Source of the DNA: Bacteroidaceae bacterium
GTDB taxonomy: Bacteria > Bacteroidota > Bacteroidia > Bacteroidales > Bacteroidaceae
Direction: 5' to 3'
Assembly: GCA_017650045.1 (NCBI GenBank)
Contig: JAGCFP010000058.1
Span: forward strand, 1-43,437
Length of the DNA: 43,437 nt
Both the position numbers and the translations under genes were made by a program. Every line of letters starts with the position of its first letter. The stretch's first letter is position 1. Below the pieces are notes generated by a model, which ran no database searches, was not told the DNA's origin, and saw nothing but the letters and a program-made list of their open reading frames with translations. Of this stretch, positions 534-43,226 are shown piece after piece.

Positions 534-2396
534 TTACTTCCAGTTCACATTCTGAACAAAGCGACCTTCTGCAGTCTGTATCTCAGATTCAGGAATTGGG
601 AAAGTCACCATGTTTGGAGTGTAAGCATTAATGTACTTGGTCTTCTGGCCACCAGTAGGACTCTGCTCAAATGCGATGAATGCATTCAGCTGGTCTGGGC
701 CTTTGCCCCAACGAGCCAAGTCGTACCAACGACCACCTTCCATACCAAGCTCTGCACGACGCTCACGCATCAAAGCTGTAGTAGCTTCTTCTGCACTGCC
801 AAAGCTCTTGTACAAGCCCATACGGTAGTTTGCTGCAGTACCAGGAACAGTCTTGCCATTCACCTTATCATCCAGAGTATATGCAGCCTTTGTGATACCC
901 TCTTCAGCTGCCACGAAACCATTAGCTGCACGGGCACGTACCTTGTTGATGTATTCCAAAGCACCATTCAGGTCGCCATCATGGATGCAGCACTCAGCAT
1001 ACATCAAATAAACGTCAGCCAGACGTAAGATGTGGAAGTTTGCCACACTTGATACAGGATAGTTGTCGCGAGCCAATGCTCCACGGTCGGCATGACGAGT
1101 CTGACTCTTCTTTGACAGATAAGGACCACCGTTAGCGAAAGAACGGATCCAAGTAGCATCTGGAGTAGAATGCCAGTCAAGCATTGGTACACCAAAGCGG
1201 GCAACGGTAACATCCAGACGTGGGTCTGTGGCTGTCTCCAAGTCACTAATTACATCTGTATGCTCAGTTTCCAGACCTTCATCGATCAGCTTAGTCAGTG
1301 TCAGTGCAGGAACATCACGGAAGTTGGCTGCAGGAAGACCATCGGCATCTACTAAGAAGCTATTCACAAACTCAGAGGTAGGCTGATAGAATCCCCAACC
1401 ACCACCAGGCATACCATCACCAGCTACGAAGCCGATGTAGTAAGAAGCATAGATACCATTTGGCAATGCGTTAGGACCATCAAGTGTCAACTGAGCATCG
1501 ATCACGCTTTCACCAGTCCAGTCGGAGGTCTTAGGAGCGAACAAATCCTCATAGGTTTCAGCTAATTGGTACTTATTACCCTTAGCATCCACACCACTGT
1601 CGATTACTTCCTTGAACAGGGCCTTAGCCTCGCTCCAGTGGTCAGCTGTTCCGTTGGTGCCGTTGTAAGGAGATGACCAATAGAGGTAAACCTTACCAAG
1701 CAGCGCCTTGGCCATCCAAGAAGTAGCACGGCCATACTCACCAGTACTCTTCCAATCAGCAGGCAACTTAGAGATGGCATCCTTCAGGTCTTCTACCACC
1801 TTGTCCCAGATATACACATAGTTGCCATTCTCGTCCACGTTAGATACCTGTGGATCCACGTTAGCCTCATAATCCTCTACAGAAACGTAAGGAATAGCGG
1901 CACCGTACATCTTGATACCTTCAAACAGCCACAGAGCCTTCAGGAACTCAGCCTGACCGATAATCTGGTCACCATTGGAGATAGCATCACCACCCTTATT
2001 CACCATTGAAATAACGTTATTGCAACGTTTCACAACTTCATAAATAGCTCCCCACTTATTACGGATGTAAGAGTTAGCTGAAGTAAATGTGAAGGTTTCC
2101 AGCAGTGTCCAGTCTGACTGGTCACCAGCCGTAGAACCCTTGTTGGCATCTGCACCGCAGACATCACCGAACACGATATTCGACAATGAGTTTCCTGGAT
2201 TGTCCCAAGGACCAGGAATCATACCGTTCAGAGAAGCGTATGCACCTGTCAGCACGAAGTCAATACCCTGATCGTTGAGAAGGGTACCCTCACTCACAGA
2301 ACCAGCAGGATCAAGCTGCAGGAAATCATCACCGCAGCTGCTCATGCCCATTGTCATGGCAAGAGCCATCGCTGAATATAATATTGTTTTTTTCAT
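534..2396 (-). CDS. SusD-family surface glycan-binding lipoprotein
   Basis: A 620-residue SusD/RagB-family lipoprotein, the outer-leaflet lid that captures oligosaccharides and closes over its SusC partner. The N-terminus MKKTILYSAMALAMTMGMSSC-GDD is a lipoprotein signal with cysteine at residue 21. The acidic residues just after it resemble the Bacteroidetes surface-export signal. The rest has typical SusD content: a helical TPR-like N-terminal part (WGAIYEVVKRCNNVI), GRATSWMAKALLGKVYLYWSSP, LRLADVYLMYAEC, INKVRARAANG, and a C-terminal RRAELGMEGGRWYDLARWG followed by FPIPESEIQT. AAGGA lies 5-6 nt before the ATG. It sits 57 nt downstream of its SusC (2454-5825) and is followed by a terminator at 439-470. 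The substrate is unknown; no glycoside hydrolase is adjacent. Confidence 0.95.
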   Translation of the reverse strand: MKKTILYSAMALAMTMGMSSCGDDFLQLDPAGSVSEGTLLNDQGIDFVLTGAYASLNGMIPGPWDNPGNSLSNIVFGDVCGADANKGSTAGDQSDWTLLETFTFTSANSYIRNKWGAIYEVVKRCNNVISMVNKGGDAISNGDQIIGQAEFLKALWLFEGIKMYGAAIPYVSVEDYEANVDPQVSNVDENGNYVYIWDKVVEDLKDAISKLPADWKSTGEYGRATSWMAKALLGKVYLYWSSPYNGTNGTADHWSEAKALFKEVIDSGVDAKGNKYQLAETYEDLFAPKTSDWTGESVIDAQLTLDGPNALPNGIYASYYIGFVAGDGMPGGGWGFYQPTSEFVNSFLVDADGLPAANFRDVPALTLTKLIDEGLETEHTDVISDLETATDPRLDVTVARFGVPMLDWHSTPDATWIRSFANGGPYLSKKSQTRHADRGALARDNYPVSSVANFHILRLADVYLMYAECCIHDGDLNGALEYINKVRARAANGFVAAEEGITKAAYTLDDKVNGKTVPGTAANYRMGLYKSFGSAEEATTALMRERRAELGMEGGRWYDLARWGKGPDQLNAFIAFEQSPTGGQKTKYINAYTPNMVTFPIPESEIQTAEGRFVQNVNWK

Positions 2397-2453
2397 ATTG
2401 TTCCTTATATATTTTAGTTTAAACTATTATTTCCATTCTATGACTGAATAGAT

Positions 2454-5400
2454 TTAGAACTCAATGTTCAGACCAAACAGATACTGACGAGGTACACCAT
2501 AAGCACCGTAGTCGATACCCTTACCTCTATCACCGCCTGTACGAACCTCAGGATCCAGACCCTCGTAACCAGTGATGGTAAATACGTTGGACATCTGAGC
2601 ATAGAGACGAATGCGAGACAATGTCAACTTCTGAACCAACTTGCGAGGCAAAGTATAGCCTAAAGTCAGAGTCTGCATACGCAGGTAAGAACCGTCTGCA
2701 ATGTAACCAGAGTGAGACTCGTTAGCCTCAGGCATGGTATTGGTTGAAGTCCACATAGGCAGTGTTCCGTTAGGATTCTCTGATGGATGCCATGCTTTCT
2801 CCACACGGTCGTAACTCCAAGCAGAACCACTGGTCAGGTTACCCCACAGGGTATAATACTCAAAGTGCTTGAACAGATCGTTGCCGATAGAATAGTACAG
2901 ATAAGTACTCAGATCCCATTCTTTCCAGTTCAGACCAATGTTGAAACCACCGGTCAAATCTGGGTGAGGATTACCAATGATGGTACGGTCGGATGCGTTG
3001 ATGAGACCATCACCGTTGAGATCCTTAAACTTGTAGTGACCTACCCATGCAGCTGGTTTCAGTGCTTTCGCATCAGTCACACCATAAGGAAGTGCATTAT
3101 AGCCTGTCACATCAGCTTCACTCTTGTAAAGGCCATCCACTTCATAACCATAGAACATAGAGATAGGCTGACCAACAGTAGTAATAGCCAACTGGTTCAG
3201 ACGGCTTGATTCATACAAGTTAGAAGAACCAAGTTTCACCACTTCATTCTTGTACCAAGAAGCATTGGCATTGATGTTGTAAGATAATTGGCCAATCTTG
3301 TCTCTCCAACCGATAGAGAAGTCAATACCGGTATTCTTCATGTCACCAATATTCACATTTGGCTTAGAACCTGTACCTGCCAAGTTTGTCCAGTTAGCAG
3401 ACACCAACATATCAGAAGTCTTCTTGATATAGAAATCGAAACTTGAGGTCAATCTGTTGTTCAGAGCGGTGAGGTCCATACCAACGTTGAACATCTTCAC
3501 GGTCTCCCAACGAGCCTCCAAGTCACCTAAGTTAGTGTTTCCATAACCAACACTTGCACTGGCATTACCACCAGTAATACCATAGTTATAGTAACCATTA
3601 GAACCTACACCATACTGGAATGCATAGTTGTAAGCACCAATGTTAGAGTTACCTGTGGTACCATAACCGGCACGGATCTTCAAGTCATCCAACCAAGTTT
3701 CATGAGCACTGGCAAGGAAAGCCTCATCAGAGATACGCCAACCCAAAGATACGCTTGGGAAGGTACCCCAACGGTGTCTTTCAGAGAACTTAGAAGAAGC
3801 ATCACGACGGATAGTAGCTGTTACCAGATACTTGCCCATGTAAGAATAGTCGAGGCGGCCGAAGAGACCGAACATTGTGGTCTTGCTACCCATGCCACCA
3901 CCATTTGACAAGTTTGATGCACCACCATTATTGATAGTCCAGGTATTAGGATCCTTCTCGAATGCATAATTCTGACGAGAAGCGCTAAGGCTACGACCAA
4001 TACCACTCTTAATAGCTTCAGAACCAACCAATACAGTAAAGTCATGGTTCTCTGCTACCGTAAACTTATAAGTGGCTGTGTTGGTCCACTGCCAACCAAA
4101 GCCCCAGCTACCGTTCTCACTCAAGCTGTTCACACTTGAACCTTCCTTGTTCCACTCAGTAGTGCGCTCGTTCATGCTCAAGCCCCAACCACCATTCAGA
4201 TTCACAGAGAACTGAGAACGCAGACTCAGACCCTGGATCCATGGATCCTTCAACTCAGCAAACCAAGCAGTCTGCAGACGGAAGTTACGGTTCCAGTCAT
4301 TCTTTGAATTCAAAGAACCTGCCAAAGCTGTGTCGGCACGACCGAGGTTACCACGGGTACCACCGAATGCACCACCTACATTGTAAGCAGGAGCCAAAGA
4401 AGAAACGGTATAAGTACGTGCGAAGGTGCTATCATCACCCTGACCACCCTGCTCACCATTTGTTTCCATCAAAGCAGCATTGGTATTCTGACCGATGGTG
4501 AAGTGCTTGGTAGGATTGAAGGTAGTATTCAGACGGATGTTATAACGCTCAAATGCAGAACCCTTGATCGGACCTTCACGATGGGTATAACCGAATGACA
4601 TAGAGTATTGACCCTTGTCACCACCACCCTGAACAGAAAGTTCATGGTTCTGTGAGAAGCCTGTGCGCTTTACATAGTCCAACCAATCGGTACCCTTGCG
4701 AGCCTCCATTTCACTCTTACCCTCATCTTCCATCAGGTAGTAGTAAGAAGACTTTGCAAAGTAATATCTGTCATCGTTTGGATTGTATGCCTTCACCCAG
4801 TTGTCAACGCTGCCATATTCAGCTTTAATCTGCTCCAATGAAGTACCGTTAGGATATACAGCGTAAGGCATCTGAAGAGGACCGTTGGCGATTGAGCCAA
4901 ACTGACCCATAGGATCCACTACATTGGCGATGTCCTCACCTTGGAACTGTACACGATTCTGCTGAGATTTTTCCTCATACTTCATCAAATCCCAAGCGGT
5001 CAGCATGTTGTAACCGTTGTTTGCCAAAGTTGAAGCTGATACATAACCATTGTAGGATACACGAACCTTACCCTCCTTGTTACCCTGCTTGGTAGTGATG
5101 ATGATCACACCGTTAGCAGCCTGGGCACCGTAGATGGCAGTTGCAGCAGCATCCTTCAATACCTGCATAGACTCAATGTCGTTAGGATTCACTGAACTAA
5201 TACTTGCACCCTGAATACCATCAATGATAATCAATGGGTCTGAACCGTTCACAGATCCCACACCACGGATACGGATGGTAGTATCACCAGAAGGACCACC
5301 ACCATTGGTGATATACACACCAGATGCACGTCCCTGCAAAGCCTCTGCGAAGGTAGCCACTGGCTGCTCAGCGATAGCGTCGCGTGATACAACTGCTACA

Positions 5401-5825
5401 GAACCCGTAATGTCTTTCTTGGCCTGCGTACCGTAACCTACCACAACGACTTCTTCCAAAGTCTCAGAATCTTCGCGGAGGGTTACTTCCAGAGATGTCT
5501 GGCTATTATCCAGCTGAATGGTCTGGGTAACGTAACCTACGTAAGAAACTACAATCGTAGCATTGTTTGGAACGCCTTGAATCACGGCAACACCGTCCAT
5601 GTTCGTGATACCACCAATGGTAGTACCCTGCACCAGTACGTTGGCACCGATCACTTCTCCCAAAGCATCCTTAACAGTCACGGTTACTGTACGACCGTTC
5701 TGTTGGATACCCTGAACTCCGTTTGTCTCATCTACACCCGCCGATGCATTCATAGGCATGCAAAGAGCGAACATCAAAGGCAATGCGCAGAGTCCCAATT
5801 GTTTTTTAAAAAAATTGTTTCTCAT
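2454..5825 (-). CDS. SusC-family TonB-dependent outer-membrane transporter
   Basis: A complete 1123-residue SusC/RagA porin. It has a signal peptide (cleavage likely after ASA, residues 27-29), a carboxypeptidase-regulatory-like domain (about 46-118), a TonB-box-like ETLEEVVVVGYGTQ (121-134), a plug domain (about 135-245, ending in YGAQAANGVIIITTKQG) and a long beta-barrel ending in YLFGLNIEF with the terminal phenylalanine expected for BAM insertion. No STN domain is present, so it probably answers a regulator other than a SusC-coupled anti-sigma factor. The plug motif usually written YGARAANG carries glutamine at residue 235; the paralogue at 37420-40836 keeps arginine. The first 260 residues closely match that paralogue, while the barrels differ more. 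It forms a pair with the SusD at 534-2396. Confidence 0.96.
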   Translation of the reverse strand: MRNNFFKKQLGLCALPLMFALCMPMNASAGVDETNGVQGIQQNGRTVTVTVKDALGEVIGANVLVQGTTIGGITNMDGVAVIQGVPNNATIVVSYVGYVTQTIQLDNSQTSLEVTLREDSETLEEVVVVGYGTQAKKDITGSVAVVSRDAIAEQPVATFAEALQGRASGVYITNGGGPSGDTTIRIRGVGSVNGSDPLIIIDGIQGASISSVNPNDIESMQVLKDAAATAIYGAQAANGVIIITTKQGNKEGKVRVSYNGYVSASTLANNGYNMLTAWDLMKYEEKSQQNRVQFQGEDIANVVDPMGQFGSIANGPLQMPYAVYPNGTSLEQIKAEYGSVDNWVKAYNPNDDRYYFAKSSYYYLMEDEGKSEMEARKGTDWLDYVKRTGFSQNHELSVQGGGDKGQYSMSFGYTHREGPIKGSAFERYNIRLNTTFNPTKHFTIGQNTNAALMETNGEQGGQGDDSTFARTYTVSSLAPAYNVGGAFGGTRGNLGRADTALAGSLNSKNDWNRNFRLQTAWFAELKDPWIQGLSLRSQFSVNLNGGWGLSMNERTTEWNKEGSSVNSLSENGSWGFGWQWTNTATYKFTVAENHDFTVLVGSEAIKSGIGRSLSASRQNYAFEKDPNTWTINNGGASNLSNGGGMGSKTTMFGLFGRLDYSYMGKYLVTATIRRDASSKFSERHRWGTFPSVSLGWRISDEAFLASAHETWLDDLKIRAGYGTTGNSNIGAYNYAFQYGVGSNGYYNYGITGGNASASVGYGNTNLGDLEARWETVKMFNVGMDLTALNNRLTSSFDFYIKKTSDMLVSANWTNLAGTGSKPNVNIGDMKNTGIDFSIGWRDKIGQLSYNINANASWYKNEVVKLGSSNLYESSRLNQLAITTVGQPISMFYGYEVDGLYKSEADVTGYNALPYGVTDAKALKPAAWVGHYKFKDLNGDGLINASDRTIIGNPHPDLTGGFNIGLNWKEWDLSTYLYYSIGNDLFKHFEYYTLWGNLTSGSAWSYDRVEKAWHPSENPNGTLPMWTSTNTMPEANESHSGYIADGSYLRMQTLTLGYTLPRKLVQKLTLSRIRLYAQMSNVFTITGYEGLDPEVRTGGDRGKGIDYGAYGVPRQYLFGLNIEF

Positions 5826-12462: not shown

Positions 12463-13953
12463 TTAGCAACGCTTGTCGAGGTAAGGCAGCACGTAAGGCT
12501 TGCGATACTCGTAGTAGTACAGACGGTGGTTAGCAGCCTCCTTGTCGTTACCAACGAAGGTACGAGTAGCTGGGTTCCACTTCACTGGACGACCAAGCTC
12601 ATAAGCAATGTTGCACAAGCAGCAAAGAACTGCGGTTCCTGCACCTGCCTCGATAGGAGCGATAGTCTGCTCGCGAGAACGGATACAGTCGATGAAGTTC
12701 TGAGCATGTGGTGAGCTGATCTCGTAAGCTGGCTGAGCCTGTGGACGAGCCTGCTGCTGGTTGCGGTTCTGCTGTGGCTGCTGCTGCTGTGGACGGCGCT
12801 GGCCAGGACGGGTACCGCGGATGTTCTCAGGAATGAGTGACATGTCAGAGCACTCGATGTGTGAACGAGATACATCTACATAACCATTCGTACCCATGAA
12901 CTTCAAGCCCTGTGAATTAGGACTATCCTCAAGATAAGCATGCTCCATCATGATGGTGCCATCAGGCCAACGGCAAGAATATGCCTCACCTTCATTCCAG
13001 TAGTTACGTGGATAGTACTCAACTGGCTGCAGGCCGTCGAAGCCCATAGCGCAGTTAGCGATGTCGTGCATGTGAGCACCCCAGTCAGCGGTGTAACCGT
13101 TACCGGTCTCACGATACCAACGCCAAGCACCCCAGAAACCTTCGCTCTTACCTGGGATAACTTCAGTCTTCTTACCCTTAGTGATAGTCTGTTCCAGAAC
13201 GATCTGTGGGCAGAGCTGCTCGTTGTACTCAATCTTAGGATCGTTCAACGGGCCTAACCAGAGGTTGAAGTTCAGGTTAGCAGGGATAGGCTGAACGCCA
13301 CCGAACTCCTCATACATCTTCTCGATTGGACGTGGAGGATCACCTACCTTAGAGTAGATCTTCTCTACGTGACCGATCTTACCTGCCTGGATGATCTCAA
13401 TAGCCTTCTGGAAAGTAGCACCTGAACGCTGCTGGCTACCAGTCTGGAACACGCGCTTGTTCTGACGAACAGCATCCTGCATAGCATAAGCCTCAGTAAT
13501 GGTGTAAGTCAAAGGCTTCTGGCAATATACATCCTTACCTGCCTGGCAAGCGTGGATGGTGTGCAGTGTATGCCAGTGGTCTGGAGAAGCTACCTCCACT
13601 GCATCGATGTCCTTACGCTCAAGGAGCTGCTCATAAGACTCATAAATGTCGCAACGCTCGTTCATACCACGTGATGCCTGCCACTGGGCAACGGTGCGGC
13701 GGAAACGCTCAGTCTTCAGAGTGTCAACATCGCTACAAGCTGCTACCTGTACACCTGCACATGAAGCGAGGCCACGGAAGTCGCTCAATGCCTGACGGCC
13801 AAGACCGATAAAACCTAATACAACACGGTCACTTGGAGCCACCTTCACACCATTCTGTGCCCAGCTAGGCATAATGGTAAGGCTTGACAAACCAAGGGCG
13901 GAAATGCGCAGGAAGTTTCTGCGGCTCATTCCATTCTTACTTGTTTTTTCCAT
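12463..13953 (-). CDS. Tat-exported Gfo/Idh/MocA-family sugar oxidoreductase
   Basis: A 496-residue NAD(P)-dependent oxidoreductase with an N-terminal twin-arginine signal (SRRNFLRISALGL, arginines 11-12) ending near PSWAQ, so it should act in the periplasm with a cofactor loaded before export. The Rossmann turn is VVLGFIGLGRQ (44-54), the catalytic lysine motif is QKPL (K146), and the conserved DWGAHMHDI (290-298) supplies the histidines. Residues 381-408 form a Q/P/R-rich low-complexity insertion (RPQQQQPQQNRNQQQ) before the C-terminal AYEISSPHAQNFIDC block. It follows the Tat TIM-barrel gene by 31 nt. Such pairs are known from Bacteroidetes keto-sugar pathways; the exact substrate here is unknown. 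Confidence 0.9.
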   Translation of the reverse strand: MEKTSKNGMSRRNFLRISALGLSSLTIMPSWAQNGVKVAPSDRVVLGFIGLGRQALSDFRGLASCAGVQVAACSDVDTLKTERFRRTVAQWQASRGMNERCDIYESYEQLLERKDIDAVEVASPDHWHTLHTIHACQAGKDVYCQKPLTYTITEAYAMQDAVRQNKRVFQTGSQQRSGATFQKAIEIIQAGKIGHVEKIYSKVGDPPRPIEKMYEEFGGVQPIPANLNFNLWLGPLNDPKIEYNEQLCPQIVLEQTITKGKKTEVIPGKSEGFWGAWRWYRETGNGYTADWGAHMHDIANCAMGFDGLQPVEYYPRNYWNEGEAYSCRWPDGTIMMEHAYLEDSPNSQGLKFMGTNGYVDVSRSHIECSDMSLIPENIRGTRPGQRRPQQQQPQQNRNQQQARPQAQPAYEISSPHAQNFIDCIRSREQTIAPIEAGAGTAVLCCLCNIAYELGRPVKWNPATRTFVGNDKEAANHRLYYYEYRKPYVLPYLDKRC

Positions 13954-13984
13954 ATAAAATAATTAATAAGTGATAAAAAAGTTT

Positions 13985-15034
13985 TTAAAGTAATATCTGA
14001 CGGGCATAGTTGATGCAGATTCCTACCTCACGCACGGCATTTGACCATGGCTTCACTGGATATTCGAGCTCGATATCGCAATAGAAAGGCTTCTTCTCGT
14101 CGCGGATGTAGTGCAACAGGTCTTCCAATGGTGTCTGACCCTGACCCCATACCTGGTTAGCATTAGGCTCCTGGGCGTTAGGACCAGTCTTGTCTTTCAT
14201 GTGGATAGAGTAGATACGATCTCCGTACTTCTTAATGAAGTCCACAGGATGCTTGCCGGTAGAACCGAAGTAGTGACCCTGATCGAAGTTGAGCATGATG
14301 TTTGGAGAAATAGCCAAAACTGGGTCTGGACCGTCTTTCCACTCATCGGTAGAATACTGCATGTGGTTGTGGAAAGCGAGAATCATATCGTGCTTCTCAG
14401 CAAATGGAGCTACGCGCTTTGCTGCATCGAGGCTGAGCTCGGTGGTCACGGCACGGGCACCCATGGCCTTAGCCAACTTGAAAGCATAGTCCAGATCTTC
14501 GTCAGAGCTGTTGGCTCCAGGACTGGTCTTCACGATGTGGATGTCGATGCCCAGATCATTGAAGCGCTTGCGAACCTCGGCAACCTTGTCCCAATCCATG
14601 TTGGCACGCCAAGCCTTTAAGGTCTCCTGATACTTGGCCATCTCTGCCTGTGCTTCAGGACCTAACTGCATACGACCACCCTGAATGGTCTGTCCAGCAC
14701 GCTCTGCTGCTGCTCTAGCTTCAGCCATCAGGCGCTGCTGTGGACTCTCTGGGATGCCTAAGCAGCCTTCCAGGTCGTTACCCATAAGCTCAAGATTGCT
14801 CACACCTGCATCCTTGCAGTAGCCAAGAAGATTCTCTAAACCACCAGGAGTACCACGGAAACTATAGGTAATACAACCCATGGCTACACCTGCAAAATTA
14901 GAATTTACCTTACCATCGGCAGGAGCAGCAGCTTTATTATCAGCACCTGCACATGAGGTCAGAGAAGGTAACACGGTAATACCTGCCAAAGCAGCGGCAG
15001 ATACACCTAAAAAATGACGTCTTGATTTGTCCAT
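13985..15034 (-). CDS. Tat-exported xylose-isomerase-like TIM-barrel lipoprotein (sugar isomerase/epimerase family)
   Basis: A 349-residue AP-endonuclease-2/xylose-isomerase-like TIM barrel. The N-terminus combines a twin-arginine motif SRRHFLG (R5, R6) with a lipobox LTSC (C28), so it is probably a Tat-exported lipoprotein. Likely metal and catalytic residues are E199 (TTELS), H222/H224 (AFHNHMQY), D251 and H254 (NFDQGHYFG), H278 (SIHMKD) and E322/E324 (CDIELEY). Relatives isomerise, epimerise or dehydrate sugars. It is first in a two-gene operon with the Tat Gfo/Idh/MocA enzyme, so a joint periplasmic oxidation/elimination or epimerisation of a sugar is a reasonable inference. Confidence 0.88.
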   Translation of the reverse strand: MDKSRRHFLGVSAAALAGITVLPSLTSCAGADNKAAAPADGKVNSNFAGVAMGCITYSFRGTPGGLENLLGYCKDAGVSNLELMGNDLEGCLGIPESPQQRLMAEARAAAERAGQTIQGGRMQLGPEAQAEMAKYQETLKAWRANMDWDKVAEVRKRFNDLGIDIHIVKTSPGANSSDEDLDYAFKLAKAMGARAVTTELSLDAAKRVAPFAEKHDMILAFHNHMQYSTDEWKDGPDPVLAISPNIMLNFDQGHYFGSTGKHPVDFIKKYGDRIYSIHMKDKTGPNAQEPNANQVWGQGQTPLEDLLHYIRDEKKPFYCDIELEYPVKPWSNAVREVGICINYARQILL

Positions 15035-15181: not shown

Positions 15182-15205
15182 CACTCCGTTTAACACATAT
15201 TAAGT
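15182..15205 (+). promoter_or_regulatory. Conserved operator-like element upstream of the first DUF6057-like gene
   Basis: CACTC followed by CGTTTAACACATATTAAGT. The same element with one single-base indel and one substitution lies at 20301-20323, before the second paralogue. In both cases its TTAAG ends exactly 33 nt before the first base of the -7 box. The core TTAAC-ATATTAA is an imperfect palindrome. Confidence 0.55.
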
Positions 15206-15215
15206 GATTAGATGT

Positions 15216-15244
15216 TTGAAATACATATTATCATTGTACTTTTG
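15216..15244 (+). promoter_or_regulatory. Predicted promoter of the first DUF6057-like gene
   Basis: TTG (15216-15218), 18 nt spacer, then a perfect -7 box TACTTTTG (15237-15244). Transcription would start near 15250, giving a leader of about 22 nt before the ATG at 15273. Confidence 0.65.
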
Positions 15245-15272: not shown

Positions 15273-17066
15273 ATGAATTCTAATAATATCGGAAAACCCA
15301 AAAAGTTGTTTCCCTTGCTATGGGTATCAGGCATATTGATAGCAGCATGCTTGCTGTTGTTCTATTTTCTGCAAAGTTCTCAGGAGTTTATTTATTATTA
15401 CAGAGAACAGCAACAAATCTTTCTCTATGACAACGACTATCTCCTGAAATTGCTGAAACCCATTGGCGGTTTTGCAGTGATGGCTGGCCAATGGCTGGTG
15501 CAGTTCTTCGTACTTCCATACATGGGAGCCTTGATTTCCACACTTTTGACACTGATAGCTGCCATCTTCCTGGGGCTCTCTTTGAAGAAACTGGATCAGA
15601 AGAACCTCTGGTGGATCCCACTGGTATTCCTGCCTTTCTTCCTCTATCATATCTGTTTACAGGATGTGTATGTGCATTATGACGGATTGGTGGCATTGAC
15701 CATAGGATGCATCTGTCTTTGGAAATACACCATGCTTCCGAAAGACAGGTGGGGGCTTCGGTTGACAGGGGGCATAGTCATTACTATAGCATTGTTCTAT
15801 CTGGCTGGTTCCATTGCCGTACTTATCAGCTTGACGATGCTGCTGTTCGATTTACTTCGCAAAGCTCCTAAGGCTTATTTGAGTGTGTTGCCCCTCGCCT
15901 TGGTGTTGATTACGGGTATCATCGCCGTGTATTACGGCTGGGTGGTGGATTATACCTATGCGTTCTGGACAAAAGGTTATTGCGAATATTACTTTGAGCC
16001 AACTTCCACCCATACCTTGTCGTGGGTTTCTATCCCTATCCTGCTGCTGATTGTCTGGTTATCGGCCCGATGGGAGAGTAAACGCGTATGGATTCAACCC
16101 TGCCTGTCATTTGCATTACTGGTTTTGGTATGCTTTGGATGCCAACGCCTGGCAACTGCCCAAATGAACTATCCTTACTATTCATTCCTAAAGCAGACGC
16201 ATTATGCTGACAGAGAGGAATGGGATAAGCTGACTAAGGTACTGGATATCAGCGCCACGAACGAAATACAGATGAACTACCTGAATCTGGGACTCGCCCA
16301 TCAAGGGCGACTGCTTACAGACCTTTTCCTTTATCCACAACAGAACATCAACTCTCTGATGACTTCGTATGTGCAATATACGGATATGGGGGTATTAATG
16401 AGCCGACTCTACTATCAGATGGGGGTAATTGGAGCAGCGCAATATCAGGCTTTCAGCAGTACAGTGGGCATCACTTATGGCAATCCGTCAATGGCCAAAT
16501 TGCTTGTCAAGACCTATCTCATCAATGGCAACTACCAGATTGCCGAAAAGCAAATTAGGCTTTTGGAAAAGAGCTGGTATTATGCAGATTGGGCAACGGA
16601 TATGCGCAAATACCTATATAATGACGACGCGGTGATGTCAGATGCAGAACTGAAGAAGATGCGTTTAAGTCTGCCAGATAATGATGGATATGCCATGCTA
16701 TATGGTCCCTTGGTGGATTTGCAAACGGTGATGGATGCCAATCCCGACAATCGCGAAGCGGCAGATTACTTTATCGCCATGCTGTTGATATCAAAGGATT
16801 ACGATGGAATCAACTTCTTCGTTGATCGCTATTATGGAAAGGGTTGCATGACCACATTGCCAGAACGACTTCAGGAAGCGATAGTAGCCATCCATGAACA
16901 TGACCCTGATTATTGCCGTGCTCATGGAGTAAGCGAAGAAACGATCAATCGTTTTAGTCAGTTCCGACAAGATGTATTGACTCTGCGACGTAGCGGAGCT
17001 ACCAATATGTCACGTCTGGCAGCTGGATACGGGAAGACGTTTTGGTATTATATGGTCAAAAATTGA
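15273..17066 (+). CDS. Polytopic membrane protein with helical C-terminal domain, DUF6057-like (copy A)
   Basis: A 597-residue protein of unknown function. Residues 1 to about 290 contain around ten hydrophobic segments, starting with LLWVSGILIAACLLLFYFL, with conserved REQQQIFLYDNDYLLKLLKPIGG and QWLVQFFVLPYMG between them. The remaining half is soluble and helical with TPR-like pairs (ARLYYQMGVIGAAQY, LLVKTYLINGNYQIAEKQI, EAADYFIAMLLISKDYDGI) and ends in GKTFWYYMVKN. I recall this as the DUF6057 family of Bacteroidetes but cannot verify it. A haem-c propeller lipoprotein gene follows 109 nt downstream on the same strand. A close paralogue lies at 20391-22172. A role as a membrane partner of the lipoprotein is inference from the repeated pairing. 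Confidence 0.85.
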   Translation: MNSNNIGKPKKLFPLLWVSGILIAACLLLFYFLQSSQEFIYYYREQQQIFLYDNDYLLKLLKPIGGFAVMAGQWLVQFFVLPYMGALISTLLTLIAAIFLGLSLKKLDQKNLWWIPLVFLPFFLYHICLQDVYVHYDGLVALTIGCICLWKYTMLPKDRWGLRLTGGIVITIALFYLAGSIAVLISLTMLLFDLLRKAPKAYLSVLPLALVLITGIIAVYYGWVVDYTYAFWTKGYCEYYFEPTSTHTLSWVSIPILLLIVWLSARWESKRVWIQPCLSFALLVLVCFGCQRLATAQMNYPYYSFLKQTHYADREEWDKLTKVLDISATNEIQMNYLNLGLAHQGRLLTDLFLYPQQNINSLMTSYVQYTDMGVLMSRLYYQMGVIGAAQYQAFSSTVGITYGNPSMAKLLVKTYLINGNYQIAEKQIRLLEKSWYYADWATDMRKYLYNDDAVMSDAELKKMRLSLPDNDGYAMLYGPLVDLQTVMDANPDNREAADYFIAMLLISKDYDGINFFVDRYYGKGCMTTLPERLQEAIVAIHEHDPDYCRAHGVSEETINRFSQFRQDVLTLRRSGATNMSRLAAGYGKTFWYYMVKN

Positions 17067-17175
17067 ACATTGAACATTGAGAAGTATTCTTGTGCAGGTA
17101 TAGAACAAATAAAGCTTGCTTTTATTTGACGAGGCGTAGCCGATAAACTTTTTGAACTAGTAACATTTAGGTATT

Positions 17176-18648
17176 ATGACATATAAATCTTTTATCTGTC
17201 TTATTATGACATTGGCTTTGATCGCTTGTGGAAAGGGCGATATTACCATATACGGCCAGCTGGGCGAGGAAGTTGCCATTACTCCCGACTACAAGGATGT
17301 AACCATTCCTCCAAACATTGCTCCTCTTGATTTCCAAACAGAGATAAAAGAGGCTACTTGTCTCATCATCAGCGATGAGCTTGGGAATAGTTTCCAAGTC
17401 CATGCGAAAGAAGGACTTTTTACCATTCCCATTGGCAAATGGAAAGCACTACTGCAAAAGAATAAAAGTAAGAATCTGACTCTGACCGTTTGTAAGAAAG
17501 AGGGTAACAAGTGGAAGTCGTATAATCCTTTTAATATTCACATTGCAGAGGAAGAAGCAGATCCTTACATTGCTTATCGACTGCTGGTATCATGCTATGG
17601 GCAATGGAATCGGATGGGTATTTATCAGCGCAATATCAGCAATTTCGACCAAAGTCCAATTTATGAGAATAGTCTGACAGATTACAATTGCATCAATTGC
17701 CATAGTTTTCCCAATCAGGACCCGAGCAAGCTTTTTTTCCACATGCGTGCTAAAAATGCAGGTACTGTGTTGATACAAGATGGTGAAGTGCAAAAACTTA
17801 ATACAGCGACCCCTGAAACCATGTCGGCTTTGGTGTATCCTTATTGGCACCCTTCGGGCAATTTCATTACAACTTCAGTAAACAAAACATCTCAGAGTTT
17901 CTTCTACCATCATGAGAATACGTTGGAAGTCTATGACACCGATTCTGATGTCGTTATTTACGATGTGGAGCGTCAAGAAATCTTTTCTAGTCCTGCATTG
18001 AAAGCCGACAGTGTCTTTGAAAGTTTTCCTACCTTTTCTCCTGATGGGCACAGTTTGTATTTCCTCACTGCGCGTGCCAAACAGATGCCAGTAGAGTACA
18101 AAGACTTACGCTACAGCCTTTGCCGCATAGACTTCGATCCTGAAACCCGAACATTAGGGCAACAGGTGGATACCATTTTCAATGCAGAAAAAGAACAGAT
18201 GAGTGTGTCATTTCCACGCATTTCTCCAGATGGCAGATTTCTGGTTTTTGGCATGCAGAAGTTTGGAAACTTCTCTGCATGGCATAAGGATTGCGACCTC
18301 TATTGTCTGCGTTTAAACGATGGAGATATTTATCCGCTTACTGCTGTCAATAGCGATGAATCAGAGAGTTATCACAGTTGGAGCAGCAATAGCCGTTGGA
18401 TGGTTTTCAGTAGTCGAAGAATGGACGGATTGTTTACGCGCACTTATTTCTCTTATATCGATGCAGACGGTGTGGCACACAAGCCATTTTTGTTGCCACA
18501 AAGGAATCCTGTGCAATACTATAATGACTTGCTGTTAGCCTACAATCTTCCTGAGTTTATCAAGGATAAAGTGTCAGTGAATCCACACAAGATTGCCACT
18601 GTAATGCGTAATACAGAAGGAGTAAACGTCACGTATCGCAAGGACTGA
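17176..18648 (+). CDS. Predicted mono-haem c-type lipoprotein with PD40/TolB-like propeller (copy A)
   Basis: A 490-residue secreted lipoprotein (signal MTYKSFICLIMTLALIAC, C18). An N-terminal domain with DYKDVTIPPNIAPLDF leads to YENSLTDYNCINCHSF, a CxxCH haem-c site (C172, C175, H176). M190 in FFHMRAK is a possible sixth ligand. The remainder shows propeller blades of the PD40/TolB type: YPYWHPSGNFI, FPTFSPDGHSLYF, FPRISPDGRFLVF, YHSWSSNSRWMVFSS. The haem motif and its surroundings are kept in the paralogue at 18657-20144, which argues against chance. It is probably cotranscribed with the upstream membrane protein. The function is unknown: an electron carrier, a redox sensor or a haem-dependent enzyme are all possible. 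Its stop lies 8 nt from the convergent paralogue's stop. Confidence 0.87.
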   Translation: MTYKSFICLIMTLALIACGKGDITIYGQLGEEVAITPDYKDVTIPPNIAPLDFQTEIKEATCLIISDELGNSFQVHAKEGLFTIPIGKWKALLQKNKSKNLTLTVCKKEGNKWKSYNPFNIHIAEEEADPYIAYRLLVSCYGQWNRMGIYQRNISNFDQSPIYENSLTDYNCINCHSFPNQDPSKLFFHMRAKNAGTVLIQDGEVQKLNTATPETMSALVYPYWHPSGNFITTSVNKTSQSFFYHHENTLEVYDTDSDVVIYDVERQEIFSSPALKADSVFESFPTFSPDGHSLYFLTARAKQMPVEYKDLRYSLCRIDFDPETRTLGQQVDTIFNAEKEQMSVSFPRISPDGRFLVFGMQKFGNFSAWHKDCDLYCLRLNDGDIYPLTAVNSDESESYHSWSSNSRWMVFSSRRMDGLFTRTYFSYIDADGVAHKPFLLPQRNPVQYYNDLLLAYNLPEFIKDKVSVNPHKIATVMRNTEGVNVTYRKD

Positions 18649-18656
18649 CCCCCACT

Positions 18657-20144
18657 CTACGGCTGTGTGCTGAAGCTGACGTCAATCCCGTTGGTTTCTT
18701 TCATCATACGGGCGATATCCTTCTGATCGAATTCCACCTTATTACTGATGAATTCTGGAATATTGTAGCAGAAAAAGAGGTCATCGTAAAACTCTACAGG
18801 GTTTTTCTGTGGCAACAAAAATGGCTTGTGTGCCACACCATTTGCATCGATGTAGGTAAAGAAAGGACGTGTGTAGAGGTCACCCATTCTTCGACTGCTG
18901 AAAACCATCCAGCGGCTATTGCTGCTCCACGAGTGGTAACTGTCTGTGCCATCTGGGCAATTAGCTTCCGTGAGTGCACGCATCTCACCACTCTGTAGAT
19001 TGATGATGTAGAGGTCGGCCTCAGAGTGCCAGATAGAGAAATTGCCCGCATCATGCAAAGTTACCACCATGAAACGTCCGTCAGGTGAAATGCGAGGAAA
19101 GGATACACTGCGTCCCTCTGTCTTAGCATTATAGAGCGTATCAACCTTGCTACCGAAAGTACGGCTCTCAACGTCTACATCGATGCGACAAAGACTGTAG
19201 TGCACATCCTTGTAGGTCATGGGAAGGCTTTCCACCTTGGTTGCTGAGCAGAAATAAAGGCTTCTGCCATCAGGAGAGAACATGGGGAACGTCTCAAATG
19301 CGTCATCCGACTTCAACAGTGGACTGCTGAATACTTCGTGACGATTCACATCATAAACCACCACATCAGAGGCATTATCGAACACCTCCAGGATATTCTG
19401 GTTATGCGCAAAAAAAGACTGATGTGTGTCATTGACGGAGAATGCGATATATTCACTCGTAGGATGCCAAAACGGATAAACTAATGCAGAAATTGTTTCA
19501 TCGGTCTTAGTATTCAGTTTTTCGGCATCCTTACCTTGAATTAATACCGTACCTGCATGCTTTGCCCTCATGTGAAACAAGATCTTCTCTGAATCACGTG
19601 AAGAGAAGCTATGGCAATTGACGCAATTGTAATCGGTAAAAGCATTTTCATATATAGGCATCTGCTCAAAAGACTCCAAATCACGCTGATAAATACCCAT
19701 TTCATTCCAGAAAGTATAGGTGGGTTGAATAAGGCGATAAGCGATATAAGGATTTATCTCTTCCTGAGCAACATGCATGTAGAACGGTAAATAGGCCGTC
19801 CATCCATCTTGTGTCTTGCGACAAACGGTCAAAGTAATGTCTTGCCCTCTATTACAATCCAAGAGGTTCTTCCATTTATTCGCTGGAATGGAGAACAATC
19901 CCTTGGCATCACCTAACACCTGAATACTCTCGCCTTGAATGCCTGTCAACAAAAGAGCGACTTCTTCCTGAACTTGAACTTGGAAATTTAGCGGGGCGAT
20001 GTTTGGCGGAATCGTTACGTCTTTATAATCGGGGAAGATAGAAACTTCCTCATCAGAATGCTGAGAGACTTCTATAGCTGAATTGCATGAAACCAGCAAC
20101 AATAGCAAAAAAAACTGAATGATGACATTAAATCGTATAGTCAT
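18657..20144 (-). CDS. Predicted mono-haem c-type lipoprotein with PD40/TolB-like propeller (copy B, inverted)
   Basis: A paralogue of the gene at 17176, roughly half identical by eye, in opposite orientation. The ATG at 20144 gives MTIRFNVIIQFFLLLLLVSC, a good lipoprotein signal. The alternative ATG at 20165 would coincide almost with the predicted transcription start, so I reject it. Numbered from the longer start, the haem site DYNCVNCHSF has C181, C184 and H185, with M199 in LFHMRAK. Propeller blades are YPFWHPTSEYI, FPMFSPDGRSLYF, FPRISPDGRFMVV and YHSWSSNSRWMVFSS. It has its own strong promoter at 20174-20203 and is divergent from the second membrane-protein gene at 20391. Confidence 0.86.
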   Translation of the reverse strand: MTIRFNVIIQFFLLLLLVSCNSAIEVSQHSDEEVSIFPDYKDVTIPPNIAPLNFQVQVQEEVALLLTGIQGESIQVLGDAKGLFSIPANKWKNLLDCNRGQDITLTVCRKTQDGWTAYLPFYMHVAQEEINPYIAYRLIQPTYTFWNEMGIYQRDLESFEQMPIYENAFTDYNCVNCHSFSSRDSEKILFHMRAKHAGTVLIQGKDAEKLNTKTDETISALVYPFWHPTSEYIAFSVNDTHQSFFAHNQNILEVFDNASDVVVYDVNRHEVFSSPLLKSDDAFETFPMFSPDGRSLYFCSATKVESLPMTYKDVHYSLCRIDVDVESRTFGSKVDTLYNAKTEGRSVSFPRISPDGRFMVVTLHDAGNFSIWHSEADLYIINLQSGEMRALTEANCPDGTDSYHSWSSNSRWMVFSSRRMGDLYTRPFFTYIDANGVAHKPFLLPQKNPVEFYDDLFFCYNIPEFISNKVEFDQKDIARMMKETNGIDVSFSTQP

Positions 20145-20173
20145 AAGAATGTAGTTTTCTGTCATTATTATTG

Positions 20174-20203
20174 CAAAGGTACAGATTATTATTTTCTTTT
20201 CAA
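20174..20203 (-). promoter_or_regulatory. Predicted promoter of haem-propeller gene copy B
   Basis: On the minus strand TTG (20201-20203), a 19-nt spacer and a perfect -7 box TACCTTTG (20174-20181). Transcription would start near 20167, so the ATG at 20144 gets a leader of about 20 nt. This decides the start codon. Confidence 0.75.
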
Positions 20204-20300
20204 CAAATAGTTAATGTTTTCTCATATCTATGTTTATTATTTGTTTAAAATTGTGAGAATCGCAAAACATCTAAATGGTTTCCTTCGATGACCAAGGGGC

Positions 20301-20323
20301 CACTCATTTAACATATATTAAGT
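20301..20323 (+). promoter_or_regulatory. Conserved operator-like element upstream of the second DUF6057-like gene
   Basis: CACTC followed by ATTTAACATATATTAAGT, the counterpart of the element at 15182-15205. The distance from its TTAAG to the -7 box is 33 nt, the same as in copy A, although the sequence in between has diverged. Confidence 0.55.
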
Positions 20324-20354
20324 ATATCTTTATTATTAATAGGACCATAAGATG

Positions 20355-20362
20355 TAACTTTG
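20355..20362 (+). promoter_or_regulatory. Predicted -7 box of the second DUF6057-like gene
   Basis: TAACTTTG matches the consensus fully and lies 28 nt before the ATG at 20391. No TTG is found at the -33 distance, so an activator bound at the upstream element may be needed. Confidence 0.55.
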
Positions 20363-20390
20363 TAATGTATTTGATTAATAACGACAAGTA

Positions 20391-22172
20391 ATGAATCCTG
20401 ATAAATCTTCAAATCTTAGATTGTTGTTGATAGTAGGCATGCTAATAGCAGTATGTCTATTGTTGTATTTTATTTTAGAAGGTACTCAAAAGTTTGTTTA
20501 TTATTATAGGGAACAGCAGCAGATATTCCTATTTGATCGAACTTATATTCTAGGTTTACTAAAGCCTATCGGGGGGTTGGCCGTGATGGTAGGACAATGG
20601 TTGGTGCAGTTCTTCGTGTTGCCACATGCAGGCGCCTGGATTTCAACATTACTCAGCCTGATATTTGCCTTCTTCATCTTCTTGGGCTTGCGAAAGTTGG
20701 ATGCACATGGTTGTTGGTGGGTGCCATTAGTATTCATACCTGTTTTTCTATACCACATTTGCTTGCAAGAAAGCCATGTACATTATAATGGATTAGTGGC
20801 ACTAACCATCGGAAGTGTCAGCCTTTGGGGATATTCCTTGCTGACCAAGATGCATTGGAAGTTTCGCATTATAGGTGGTGTGGTGATTGCACTGGTACTG
20901 TTCTATTTGGCAGGTTCCGTTGCCGTTCTTATAAGCTTGACGATGCTGCTTTTCGATTTACTCCGCAAGGCTCCAAAAGCCTATCTGGGAGCAGTACCAT
21001 TGGCAGTAGTGCTTTTCATGGGCATCTTGGCTGTATCTTTCAGGTGGTTAATGGATTATGACTATGCATTCTGGACAAAAAGCTACTGTGAATATTACTA
21101 TGCTCCAACCACCCTACATACTTTGTCTTGGATCTCACTACCATTGCTAATGCTTTTAGTGGGAGTGTCGGCCAAATGGCAGTGGCGCAAGACTTGGATG
21201 GAACCAGTATTCGCCGTGGTACTGATAGGGCTGATGACCTTCAGCTATCTGCAAATATCAAGAGGTGTGAAAAATGATGCTTACTACACTTTGCAGGAGC
21301 AGATACACTATGCCGATACGCAAGAATGGGATAAGTTGACCACCGTAGAGGGTGTTAGTGCCAATGACGATATACAAATGAACTATTTCAATCTAGGACT
21401 TTCACATCAAGGACGGCTGCTTTATGACCTGTTGATCTATCCACAGAAAGGCATGTCATCTCTGATGATAGACAATGTGCAGGATACGGATATGGGCGTA
21501 CTGATGGCACGCCTGTACTATCAAATGGGGGTAATAGGAGCAGCCCAATATCTATCTTTTTGTGCTACTGTGGGCATAACCTATGGTAACCCCTCTATGA
21601 CTATGTTGCTGATTAAGACCTACCTCATCAATGGCTCTTATCAGATGGCTGAGAAGTATATTAAGATGCTTGAGAAAAGTTGGTATTATGCCGACTGGGC
21701 AAGGGAACAACGCCAGTTCCTTTATAACGATAAAGCAGTAGAAGCAGACCCAGAGTTAGGGAAGATGCGGCGGGGATTGACAAAGAATAATGACGAATTT
21801 GTAATAATTCATGGTCCTTTATCAGATTTAGCCTCGGTATTGGATGCGAATCCAGGCAACAAAGAAGCAGCCGAATATTTAATAGGTATGCTATTAGTTT
21901 CCAAAAATTTCGATGGTGTTATAGAGTTTGTGGAACGGTATTACGGAAAAGGTTGCATGACCACATTGCCAGAACGACTTCAGGAAGCGATAGTAGCCAT
22001 CAATGAACATGACCCCGAATTCTGTCGTGCCCATGGTGTGAGTGAAGAAACCATCGACCGATTTACCAATTTCAGACAGGATGTGATTACCTTAAGAAGG
22101 AATGGAGCTACCAACTTTTCTGGTTTGGCTGCCAAATATGGCAAGACTTTCTGGTATTACATGATAAAATAA
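20391..22172 (+). CDS. Polytopic membrane protein with helical C-terminal domain, DUF6057-like (copy B)
   Basis: A 593-residue paralogue of the protein at 15273, with the same plan: about ten hydrophobic segments in residues 1-290, REQQQIFLFDRTYILGLLKPIGG, QWLVQFFVLPHAG, then a helical TPR-like half ending GKTFWYYMIK. A 51-nt stretch (21951-22001) is identical to 16842-16892 in copy A although flanking DNA has diverged. Its haem-propeller partner (18657-20144) is upstream and divergent rather than downstream, so each copy of the module has one membrane protein and one lipoprotein but different gene order. The stop lies 10 nt from the convergent recQ stop. The function is unknown. Confidence 0.85.
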   Translation: MNPDKSSNLRLLLIVGMLIAVCLLLYFILEGTQKFVYYYREQQQIFLFDRTYILGLLKPIGGLAVMVGQWLVQFFVLPHAGAWISTLLSLIFAFFIFLGLRKLDAHGCWWVPLVFIPVFLYHICLQESHVHYNGLVALTIGSVSLWGYSLLTKMHWKFRIIGGVVIALVLFYLAGSVAVLISLTMLLFDLLRKAPKAYLGAVPLAVVLFMGILAVSFRWLMDYDYAFWTKSYCEYYYAPTTLHTLSWISLPLLMLLVGVSAKWQWRKTWMEPVFAVVLIGLMTFSYLQISRGVKNDAYYTLQEQIHYADTQEWDKLTTVEGVSANDDIQMNYFNLGLSHQGRLLYDLLIYPQKGMSSLMIDNVQDTDMGVLMARLYYQMGVIGAAQYLSFCATVGITYGNPSMTMLLIKTYLINGSYQMAEKYIKMLEKSWYYADWAREQRQFLYNDKAVEADPELGKMRRGLTKNNDEFVIIHGPLSDLASVLDANPGNKEAAEYLIGMLLVSKNFDGVIEFVERYYGKGCMTTLPERLQEAIVAINEHDPEFCRAHGVSEETIDRFTNFRQDVITLRRNGATNFSGLAAKYGKTFWYYMIK

Positions 22173-35472: not shown

Positions 35473-37293
35473 TTACTTCCAGTTCTCATTCTGAACGAAA
35501 CGACCCATAGCGGTCTGAATCTCAGTCTGAGGAATTGGGAAGGTTACCCAGTCAGCAGAATAAGCATTACCGAACTTGCCTGGGAAGAACTGGCCTTCGT
35601 ATTCACGGTAAGCATTCAGCACGTTAGCAACAGTACCCCAACGGGCAATGTCAAACCAACGGTGACCTTCCATACCAAACTCTGCACGCATTTCACGAGC
35701 TAAAGCGGTCTTTGCCTCTTCTTTGCTAGCAAAGTTAGTATACAGACCAATCTTATAGGTAGCAGCTGCACCAGTCTTAGTCTCACCATTTACAAGGTCG
35801 GTAAATGTCTTACCTGCAGCAGGATTCTCGATAAAGCTGTTAGCAGCACGTGCACGTACCTTATTAATCAAAGTCAGAGCAGTACCCAGATCACCTTCTT
35901 CGATGGCACATTCAGCACGCATCAACAGGATGTCAGCGAAACGGATTACGTGGTAGTTAGCAGCATTTGAACTGATGGCAGTAGCCACAGCCGTAGAACC
36001 ACGGTCAGCCTTGCGGTGCTGATACTTGATGTTCATCTGAAGACCACCATTGGTGTAGTCACGTACCCAACCGTTCAACTCGGTAGGAATACCATAATCC
36101 AGATAAGGAACTCCGAAACGACCTGCGCAGTAGTCCAAACGTGGATCAACAGGAGTATCCAGGTCAGTTACAATCTTACCATCTTCGATAGTAGTCAAAG
36201 GATCAAAATCAGTATAGTTAGCCAAAGGCAGACCATTAGCGTCAACCATGAAGCTGTTTACAAACTCGTAAGTTGGCTGATAGAAACCCCAACCACCAAT
36301 ACCCAGAGCACCAGGAGAACCAGGAGCAGGGTTAGAGATGATGGCATTAGAATCGGTCTGAGTACCGCTGATTACCAACTGAACATCGAATACAGACTCA
36401 CCAGTCCAGTCAGAAGTGTTAGCATTATTGAACAACTCAGCATAAGTGTCGGCCAAACGGAACTTCTCACCTCTTGCATCTACACCATTATTGATAATAT
36501 CATCCAGCAGCGCCTTGGCATCTGCCCAATGATTTGCAGAAGCGTTCTTACCATTAAATGGAGAAGACCAATAAACATACAACTTAGCAAGCATGGCCTT
36601 GGCCATCCATGAAGTAGCACGACCCAATTGATTCTTTCCATATCCAGCAGATGTCCATGTTGCAGGAAGTCCAGCAGCAGCGTCCTTAAGATCCTGCTCA
36701 ACCAGATTCCAAATGTAAACATAGTTACCACTCTCATCAACATTTGACACCACTGGGTCTGTAGATGCCTGATAGTCCTCCAAAGTCACATAAGGAATGG
36801 CGGCACCGAACATACGGATACCTTCAAACATCCAAACACCCTTGATGAACTTAGCCTGGGCAATGATTTGGTCAGGGTTGGCAATCTTATCGCCAGCCTT
36901 GCCTACCATGTCAATCACGTTGTTGCAACGTTTTACAGCTTCATAAATGCCTGCCCACTTACCCTGAATGTAGGAGTTAGCAGCAGAAAATGAATAAACC
37001 TCGATAGCGGTGAAGTCAGACTGGTCTGAAGACTGAGATCCCTTGTTGGCATCAGCACCTGCAACGTCACCGAAGCAGTAGTTAGCCAGAGAAGCATAAC
37101 CCATCCAACCGGTCTGGTTCATGTTGTTCAGAGAAGCATAAGCACCTGTCAGCACCATGTCAATACCGCTCTCAGTGGTCAGCGTACCCTCAGACACAGA
37201 ACCAGCAGGGTCGAGTACCAGGAAGTCGTCGCCGCAACTGCTCATAGTCAGGGTAGCAAGTGCCATTGCTGAATATAATATTGCTTTTTTCAT
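35473..37293 (-). CDS. SusD-family surface glycan-binding lipoprotein
   Basis: About 606 residues, paralogous to the SusD at 534-2396 (shared CGDDFL-LDPAGSVSEGTL, INKVRARAANS, REMRAEFGMEGHRWFDIARWG, FPIPQTEIQTAMGRFVQNENWK). The signal MKKAILYSAMALATLTMSSC-GDD has a lipobox cysteine and acidic +3/+4 residues. The open frame extends four codons further to a TTG at 37305; the ATG at 37293 is homologous to the start of the first SusD and is chosen. Its SusC partner ends at 37420. The 126-nt spacer contains a folded GC-rich element. It is followed by a terminator. The ligand is unknown. Confidence 0.95.
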   Translation of the reverse strand: MKKAILYSAMALATLTMSSCGDDFLVLDPAGSVSEGTLTTESGIDMVLTGAYASLNNMNQTGWMGYASLANYCFGDVAGADANKGSQSSDQSDFTAIEVYSFSAANSYIQGKWAGIYEAVKRCNNVIDMVGKAGDKIANPDQIIAQAKFIKGVWMFEGIRMFGAAIPYVTLEDYQASTDPVVSNVDESGNYVYIWNLVEQDLKDAAAGLPATWTSAGYGKNQLGRATSWMAKAMLAKLYVYWSSPFNGKNASANHWADAKALLDDIINNGVDARGEKFRLADTYAELFNNANTSDWTGESVFDVQLVISGTQTDSNAIISNPAPGSPGALGIGGWGFYQPTYEFVNSFMVDANGLPLANYTDFDPLTTIEDGKIVTDLDTPVDPRLDYCAGRFGVPYLDYGIPTELNGWVRDYTNGGLQMNIKYQHRKADRGSTAVATAISSNAANYHVIRFADILLMRAECAIEEGDLGTALTLINKVRARAANSFIENPAAGKTFTDLVNGETKTGAAATYKIGLYTNFASKEEAKTALAREMRAEFGMEGHRWFDIARWGTVANVLNAYREYEGQFFPGKFGNAYSADWVTFPIPQTEIQTAMGRFVQNENWK

Positions 37294-37340
37294 ATTGTAT
37301 TTCAATTTAAAAGTTTTAATTTGTTAAACCTTTCTTCTTT

Positions 37341-37417
37341 TAATGAACTCTCCTTGAATGCCCCTCCCTCGATTGGGAGGGGCCGGGAGAAACTATCTTT
37401 TGGTAGTCAGTTCATTA
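37341..37417 (-). repeat. Folded palindromic element between susC and susD
   Basis: Outer 9-bp pairing TAATGAACT/AGTTCATTA (37341-37349 with 37409-37417) encloses an 8-bp GC hairpin CCCCTCCC/GGGAGGGG (37361-37368 with 37375-37382) and a second hairpin ACTATC-TTTT-GGTAGT. A related but diverged element lies in the other susC-susD spacer near 43227. It is probably an RNA structure tuning susD versus susC expression, or a REP-like repeat. Confidence 0.6.
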
Positions 37418-37419
37418 AA

Positions 37420-43165: not shown

Positions 43166-43226
43166 ACTGTATTTCAATTTTAAGTTTTATATAATTAAAC
43201 TACTTCCTTTTAGCCCTTCCTGTATT

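Follow-up and report, generated by a model that had tools for sequence, protein, structure and literature searches.

The 43,437-nucleotide window analysed here is a whole contig (JAGCFP010000058.1, forward strand) from assembly GCA_017650045.1 of a Bacteroidaceae bacterium, a genome of 2.27 Mb that is 76.6% complete. It carries a locus in which two genes, one for a DUF6057 membrane protein and one for a lipoprotein with a TolB-like propeller and a CxNCH motif, each occur twice; the locus is a duplicated and rearranged two-gene module. A first-pass annotation of the sequence had described two paralogous membrane proteins and two paralogous lipoproteins, one lipoprotein gene being inverted, and mechanical calling of open reading frames (ORFs) finds all four where that annotation placed them:

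15273..17066, + strand: DUF6057 membrane protein A, 597 residues (PF19529, E 6.9e-129)
17176..18648, + strand: lipoprotein A, 490 residues, with lipobox Cys18, a TolB-like propeller (probably of six blades) and CINCH
17689..17703, + strand: CINCH of lipoprotein A, residues 172-176, a candidate site for attachment of haem c
18657..20165, - strand: lipoprotein B, inverted, 502 residues from the first ATG, with CVNCH (PD40, E 1.2e-11)
19611..19625, - strand: CVNCH of lipoprotein B, residues 181-185, a candidate site for attachment of haem c, read from the sequence
20391..22172, + strand: DUF6057 membrane protein B, 593 residues (PF19529, E 1.3e-125)

The gene for lipoprotein B is located as annotated, but the start given for it, 20144, is a later ATG, and the first ATG gives 20165. 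In the related genome L235 the four genes recur in identical order and orientation with 87-93% identity to their counterparts, so the inversion is real and no artefact of assembly. The two DUF6057 proteins share 65% identity. They are the only two encoded in the window's genome, which also has a third lipoprotein gene on another contig (L069), behind SusD; lipoprotein B is 71% identical to this third copy versus 57% to lipoprotein A.

The DUF6057-lipoprotein pair is a real, conserved and so far undescribed two-gene module. It was followed in 80 Bacteroidales loci, the best 80 of 504 confirmed stretches, so that close relatives are favoured; the named genomes were scanned with an 11-sequence profile. 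Of the 95 lipoprotein ORFs in these loci, 88 directly follow a DUF6057 gene on their own strand, with a median gap of 3 bp and many 4-bp overlaps, and CxxCH is kept in 94 of the 95, the exception being a 307-residue fragment. Frequent loss of the membrane partner or of the CxxCH residues, either of which the first-pass annotation regarded as fatal to its proposal, is thus not what these loci display. In a phylum sample of 395 genomes, DUF6057 exceeded its cut-off in six and strong lipoprotein matches occurred in five; all five hold at least one pair, and the sixth genome (G351) has only a partial DUF6057 match in two pieces. Lipoprotein carriers account for 27 of 247 genomes in an order sample and 66 of 154 in a genus sample. 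A literature search, judged by titles and the starts of abstracts, found nothing on the pair, and no paper mentioning DUF6057 was found.

Both lipoproteins possess a lipobox Cys, PD40 repeats, TDYNC-x-NCHSF and FHMRAK, and the earlier description of these motifs and of PD40/TolB-like blades is borne out by the sequence and by Pfam. The alignment comprises 94 sequences, two from the window plus 92 of the 95 ORFs (those of 307, 394 and 619 residues being excluded by length). All 94 have CxxCH at the same position, and all share the lipobox Cys, C172, N174, C175, H176, H189 and R191. By composition, CxxCH would be expected about 0.004 times per such protein. The conserved methionine that the annotation saw in FHMRAK did not hold up, since only 37 of the 94 have Met immediately following H189, and an axial methionine was dropped; what is conserved there is His189 and Arg191. 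A Pfam scan of the lipoproteins matched no cytochrome c domain, a literature search combining PD40, cytochrome c, lipoprotein and Bacteroides found nothing, and searching the PDB with the lipoprotein profile returned, besides chance matches, stretches of propellers and of TolB with E values starting at 7e-5. At alignment residue 332, 83 of the 94 lipoproteins have a D-[ST]-[AILVMT] triplet, which is the motif for O-glycosylation in Bacteroidetes.

Cytochrome c synthase (PF01578) is commoner among carriers of the lipoprotein than among other genomes. In the genus sample the synthase passes its cut-off in 66 of 66 carriers versus 64 of 88 non-carriers (Fisher 3e-7), and in the order sample, at E <= 0.001, it is found in 27 of 27 carriers versus 172 of 220 others (P 0.002). 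Among order genomes without a strong match to NrfA the corresponding counts are 16/16 and 80/124, with 13 weak NrfA matches in the order sample and one weak carrier match scored as absent; a figure of 39/40 from the same NrfA counts combines named carriers and order background. PF01578 was likewise matched in 49 of the 50 named carriers, some of which are also members of the genus sample; the genome of the window, which encodes both CcsBA and CcsB-CcsA, belongs to both samples. The 66 genus-sample carriers are similar in genome size to the 20 listed synthase-free genomes of that sample. NrfA is found in 12 of 51 carriers (the window's genome included; one match is weak) and 39 are without it. 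Of ten regions of 11-12 kb around separate CcsB-CcsA genes in NrfA-free carriers, eight showed no ORF with CxxCH.

In the same-genus genome L234, SusC, SusD, c1, DUF6057, the lipoprotein, c0 and CcsBA follow one another on one strand, with gaps of 5, -4 and 1 bp from DUF6057 on; next come genes for GH3, GH26, GH130, a sugar transporter and an epimerase-like protein (GH, glycoside hydrolase). The product of c0 is a chorismatase-like Rid-domain protein, a distant relative of the FkbO/Hyg5 chorismatases (48.5 bits against a cut-off of 325). Of 88 lipoprotein neighbourhoods 12 encode it, as do 47 of 51 carrier genomes; in six of these 47 a comparison by eye places it no more than 3 kb from a synthase match, and it adjoins CcsBA in the window's genome and in three of 20 other synthase regions. 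The adjacency of c0 and CcsBA is seen at L234:8090-12703, at L165:5514-8754 and in L179, L182 and L184, and c0 also adjoins the DUF6057-lipoprotein pair, elsewhere or within the same run. The invariance of CxNCH, the synthase co-occurrence, the L234 operon and the c0 association together point to a haem site; taken as proof of haem, c0 was rejected and counts as supportive only. The lipoprotein very probably carries covalent haem c, and we judge the site quite likely to be occupied.

The first-pass annotation had recognized neither that the membrane partner belongs to a known family, DUF6057, with GT-C-like and TPR parts, nor the association with SusC/SusD glycan loci. DUF6057 A and B score 431.7 and 420.9 bits against the PF19529 gathering cut-off of 29.8, covering positions 8-567 and 8-566 of the 569-position profile. 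Hydropathy, charge and the AlphaFold model (predicted local confidence, pLDDT, 94.5) predict for DUF6057 A an N-in membrane domain (residues 12-297) and a periplasmic TPR-like arm (residues 298-597). The membrane domain, which precedes the TPR-like arm, shows a moderate likeness to GT-C that is structural in kind. The acidic dyad that GT-C enzymes carry in the first extracytoplasmic loop was not found, its place being taken by E45 in 69 and Q46 in 63 of 74 DUF6057 sequences. In the PDB, the DUF6057 profile matched transporters only, at E 0.18 or worse, and single-sequence queries of the proteins gave no match below E 0.09. The few PF19529 matches below the cut-off that were inspected in the phylum sample were discarded: Pfam identifies L008 as FtsW and L020 as a PMT_2 protein, and L010, L011 and L013 appear FtsW-like, judging their neighbours by eye. 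For weak PF19529 matches, hhalign with single sequences returned nothing, and a chloride-channel control scored no worse.

The module is very probably linked to glycan-utilization loci. Of 37 loci 19 kb or longer, 24 contain SusD, versus two of 40 control regions (17-20 kb, from carrier genomes), and in 15 of the 37 it lies upstream in the same gene run. The profiles used to find SusC and SusD derive from lipoprotein neighbourhoods; the control regions were hand-chosen on contigs known from synthase or NrfA matches, and a Pfam check detected SusD_RagB in one of 32 candidate control proteins. The linked enzymes vary (GH28, GH31, GH123 and GH130 by Pfam; GH3, GH26 and GH130 in L234; others by eye), which suggests that the module is not tied to a single glycan.

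These findings lead us to propose that a haem-c lipoprotein and a GT-C-like/TPR membrane protein form a periplasmic redox partner or sensor for glycan use, a proposal whose chances we regard as evenly balanced. DUF6057 would be an inner-membrane protein whose TPR-like arm lies in the periplasm, and the lipoprotein a periplasm-facing TolB-like propeller with CxNCH in an early blade, to which CcsBA or CcsB-CcsA would attach one covalent haem. The TPR arm may hold the propeller and so station the haem-bearing lipoprotein beside the inner membrane, where it could serve a periplasmic step of glycan use, either as a partner in one-electron redox chemistry or as a redox sensor. That none of 94 lipoproteins, versus nine of 40 SusD proteins, has three or more acidic residues after the lipid Cys was counted in favour of this arrangement. 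In three distant proteins that were scanned (L071, L072 and L074), TPR repeats and a PD40/TolB-like part occupy one chain, which speaks for a connection between propeller and TPR arm.

Several observations weigh against this proposal. Seven of the 95 lipoprotein ORFs lack DUF6057 directly upstream: an intervening gene precedes the lipoprotein in L093, L114, L116, L135 and L140, L094 is at a contig start and L154 is a fragment; the same is true of the third copy in L069 and of one gene each in L065 and L236. In the window itself the module stands outside any SusC/SusD operon, separated by 9.4 kb from the closest pair of these genes. One named carrier, G687 (2.0 Mb), has no PF01578 match, restricting the genus sample to its high-quality genomes weakens the effect (36/36 versus 46/56 at E <= 0.001, P 0.005), and the P values overstate the evidence because the genomes are related to each other. 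A strong NrfA match occurs in 11 of 27 order carriers, and CcsBA was found within a module operon once (L234), no best match to CcsBA/CcsA being present among the 88 neighbourhoods read. Canonical CxxCH haem sites are helical turns, which are required for haem attachment, and the AlphaFold model of the lipoprotein (without haem, pLDDT 95.2) has residues 172-177 as a beta strand. As this model is haem-free and represents no holo form, the lipoprotein is not classed as a proven cytochrome c. The membrane-bound haem redox or sensing complex suggested by the first-pass annotation is accordingly upheld in part: synthase co-occurrence and one operon shared with CcsBA support covalent haem, but the modelled site lacks the normal haem-c turn.

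The same model agrees with a different function for the motif. CxxCH (172-177) and H189/R191 (185-191) are placed on consecutive strands, and with H189 and R191 invariant, CxNCH, His189 and Arg191 could form a metal or catalytic site of the propeller that holds no haem, the synthase link then reflecting ancestry or life style. This is quite unlikely, given that a synthase is present in every carrier of two samples, that CcsBA shares an operon with the module, and that the 66 carriers are similar in size to the 20 listed synthase-free genomes. The main rival concerns the partner: DUF6057 may be an active GT-C glycosyltransferase built like TMTC, with the lipoprotein as its dedicated acceptor or co-factor and the haem motif secondary. 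We consider this somewhat unlikely, and glycosyl transfer could be compatible with the redox proposal. The O-mannosyltransferases TMTC1-4 have an N-in membrane part, an acidic residue in the first loop and an outside TPR arm (PMC7801869), the architecture predicted for DUF6057. They differ in having a DD dyad where DUF6057 has E-Q, and the likeness drawn here is one of architecture, not of sequence comparison. A role of DUF6057 as a general Bacteroidetes O-glycosyltransferase was set aside as unlikely in view of its occurrence in six of 395 phylum genomes and that of its lipoprotein partner in 27 of 247 order genomes.

A further alternative makes the lipoprotein the electron acceptor of periplasmic glycoside 3-dehydrogenases in a 3-keto-glycoside pathway. 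It draws on a Gfo/Idh/MocA protein and a sugar-isomerase-like partner encoded divergently from DUF6057 A, and on the window's genome having CcsB-CcsA after ThuA, opposite a dehydrogenase of the BT_2158 type (878 bits). However, the window's Gfo protein scores 108 bits against the BT_2158 cut-off of 750, and relatives of either protein are found in only six of 88 neighbourhoods; such a partnership was rejected as rare, and we consider this alternative very improbable.

Bacteroidales glycan use is treated as binding, hydrolysis and import, and a conserved, probably haem-bearing module near such loci would mean an overlooked redox step or control. The widest reading, which is unlikely, is of a new periplasmic apparatus in which a haem-c propeller held by the TPR arm of a GT-C-like protein serves many different glycan-uptake operons and couples import or processing to electron transfer, perhaps with the help of a redox compound made from chorismate. 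If true, it would sometimes bring its own cytochrome c synthase and the chorismatase-like c0, and it would operate in bacteria that are generally regarded as fermenters. The module could help to explain why cytochrome c synthase is retained in some Bacteroidales without nitrite reductase. It is carried by some gut bacteria that use plant and host sugars, often near sugar-uptake genes, and DUF6057 thereby gains a testable partner, cofactor and pathway context.

Among known systems, TolB of Tol-Pal differs from lipoproteins A and B, which are lipid-anchored and have CxNCH; they score 28.3 and 43 bits against the TIGR02800 cut-off of 343.15. The haems of the hydrazine synthase alpha subunit are located in other domains; this subunit (5c2v) gave no sequence match to the lipoprotein profile at E <= 10, and its metabolism differs from the setting of the module. 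Classical CcsBA-matured c-type cytochromes such as NrfHA have CxxCH and a genomic cytochrome c synthase in common with the module, whose motif instead sits in a propeller blade and matches no Pfam cytochrome c domain. The fused PD40-TPR proteins L071-L074 share CxNCH and a PD40-type propeller with lipoprotein A at 20-23% identity; they differ in having TPR in the same chain (three of four) and no DUF6057 was found beside them. To our knowledge no function has been described for them. One, L074:1478-7568, lies near genes for CxxCH proteins that by eye resemble cbb3-type oxidase.

Elsewhere in the window, the Gfo/Idh/MocA oxidoreductase and sugar-isomerase-like genes occupy 12463-15034, both with Tat-like starts; their order is kept in L235, and relatives are rare in other neighbourhoods. 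In the genome from which the window comes, the CcsB-CcsA arrangement with the dehydrogenase is at L166:4943-9054 and may connect cytochrome c with the 3-keto-glycoside pathway. Three SusD genes of the window, two with SusC, lie in 534-5825, 35473-40836 and 41282-43177 and have similar N-termini; that of the third resembles the SusD preceding the third lipoprotein gene (L069). Each DUF6057 gene is preceded by a shared element:

15189..15204, + strand: 16-base element TTTAACANATATTAAG upstream of DUF6057 A, from a pattern search of the window
15237-15244: -7-box-like TACTTTTG, 33 nt after TTTAACANATATTAAG and before DUF6057 A
20307..20322, + strand: second copy of the 16-base element, upstream of DUF6057 B
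20355-20362: -7-box-like TAACTTTG, upstream of DUF6057 B, at the same spacing from the element as in the A copy

Even when as many as two mismatches are allowed, the window holds just these two matches (0.11 expected); in L235 the element also precedes the B copy, with no exact match before the A copy. TACTTTTG fits TAnnTTTG, the consensus of the Bacteroides -7 box. Finally, 51 bases (16842-16892 and 21951-22001) are identical between the two DUF6057 genes, which are 47-79% identical in 150-column bins, and may represent a gene-conversion tract.

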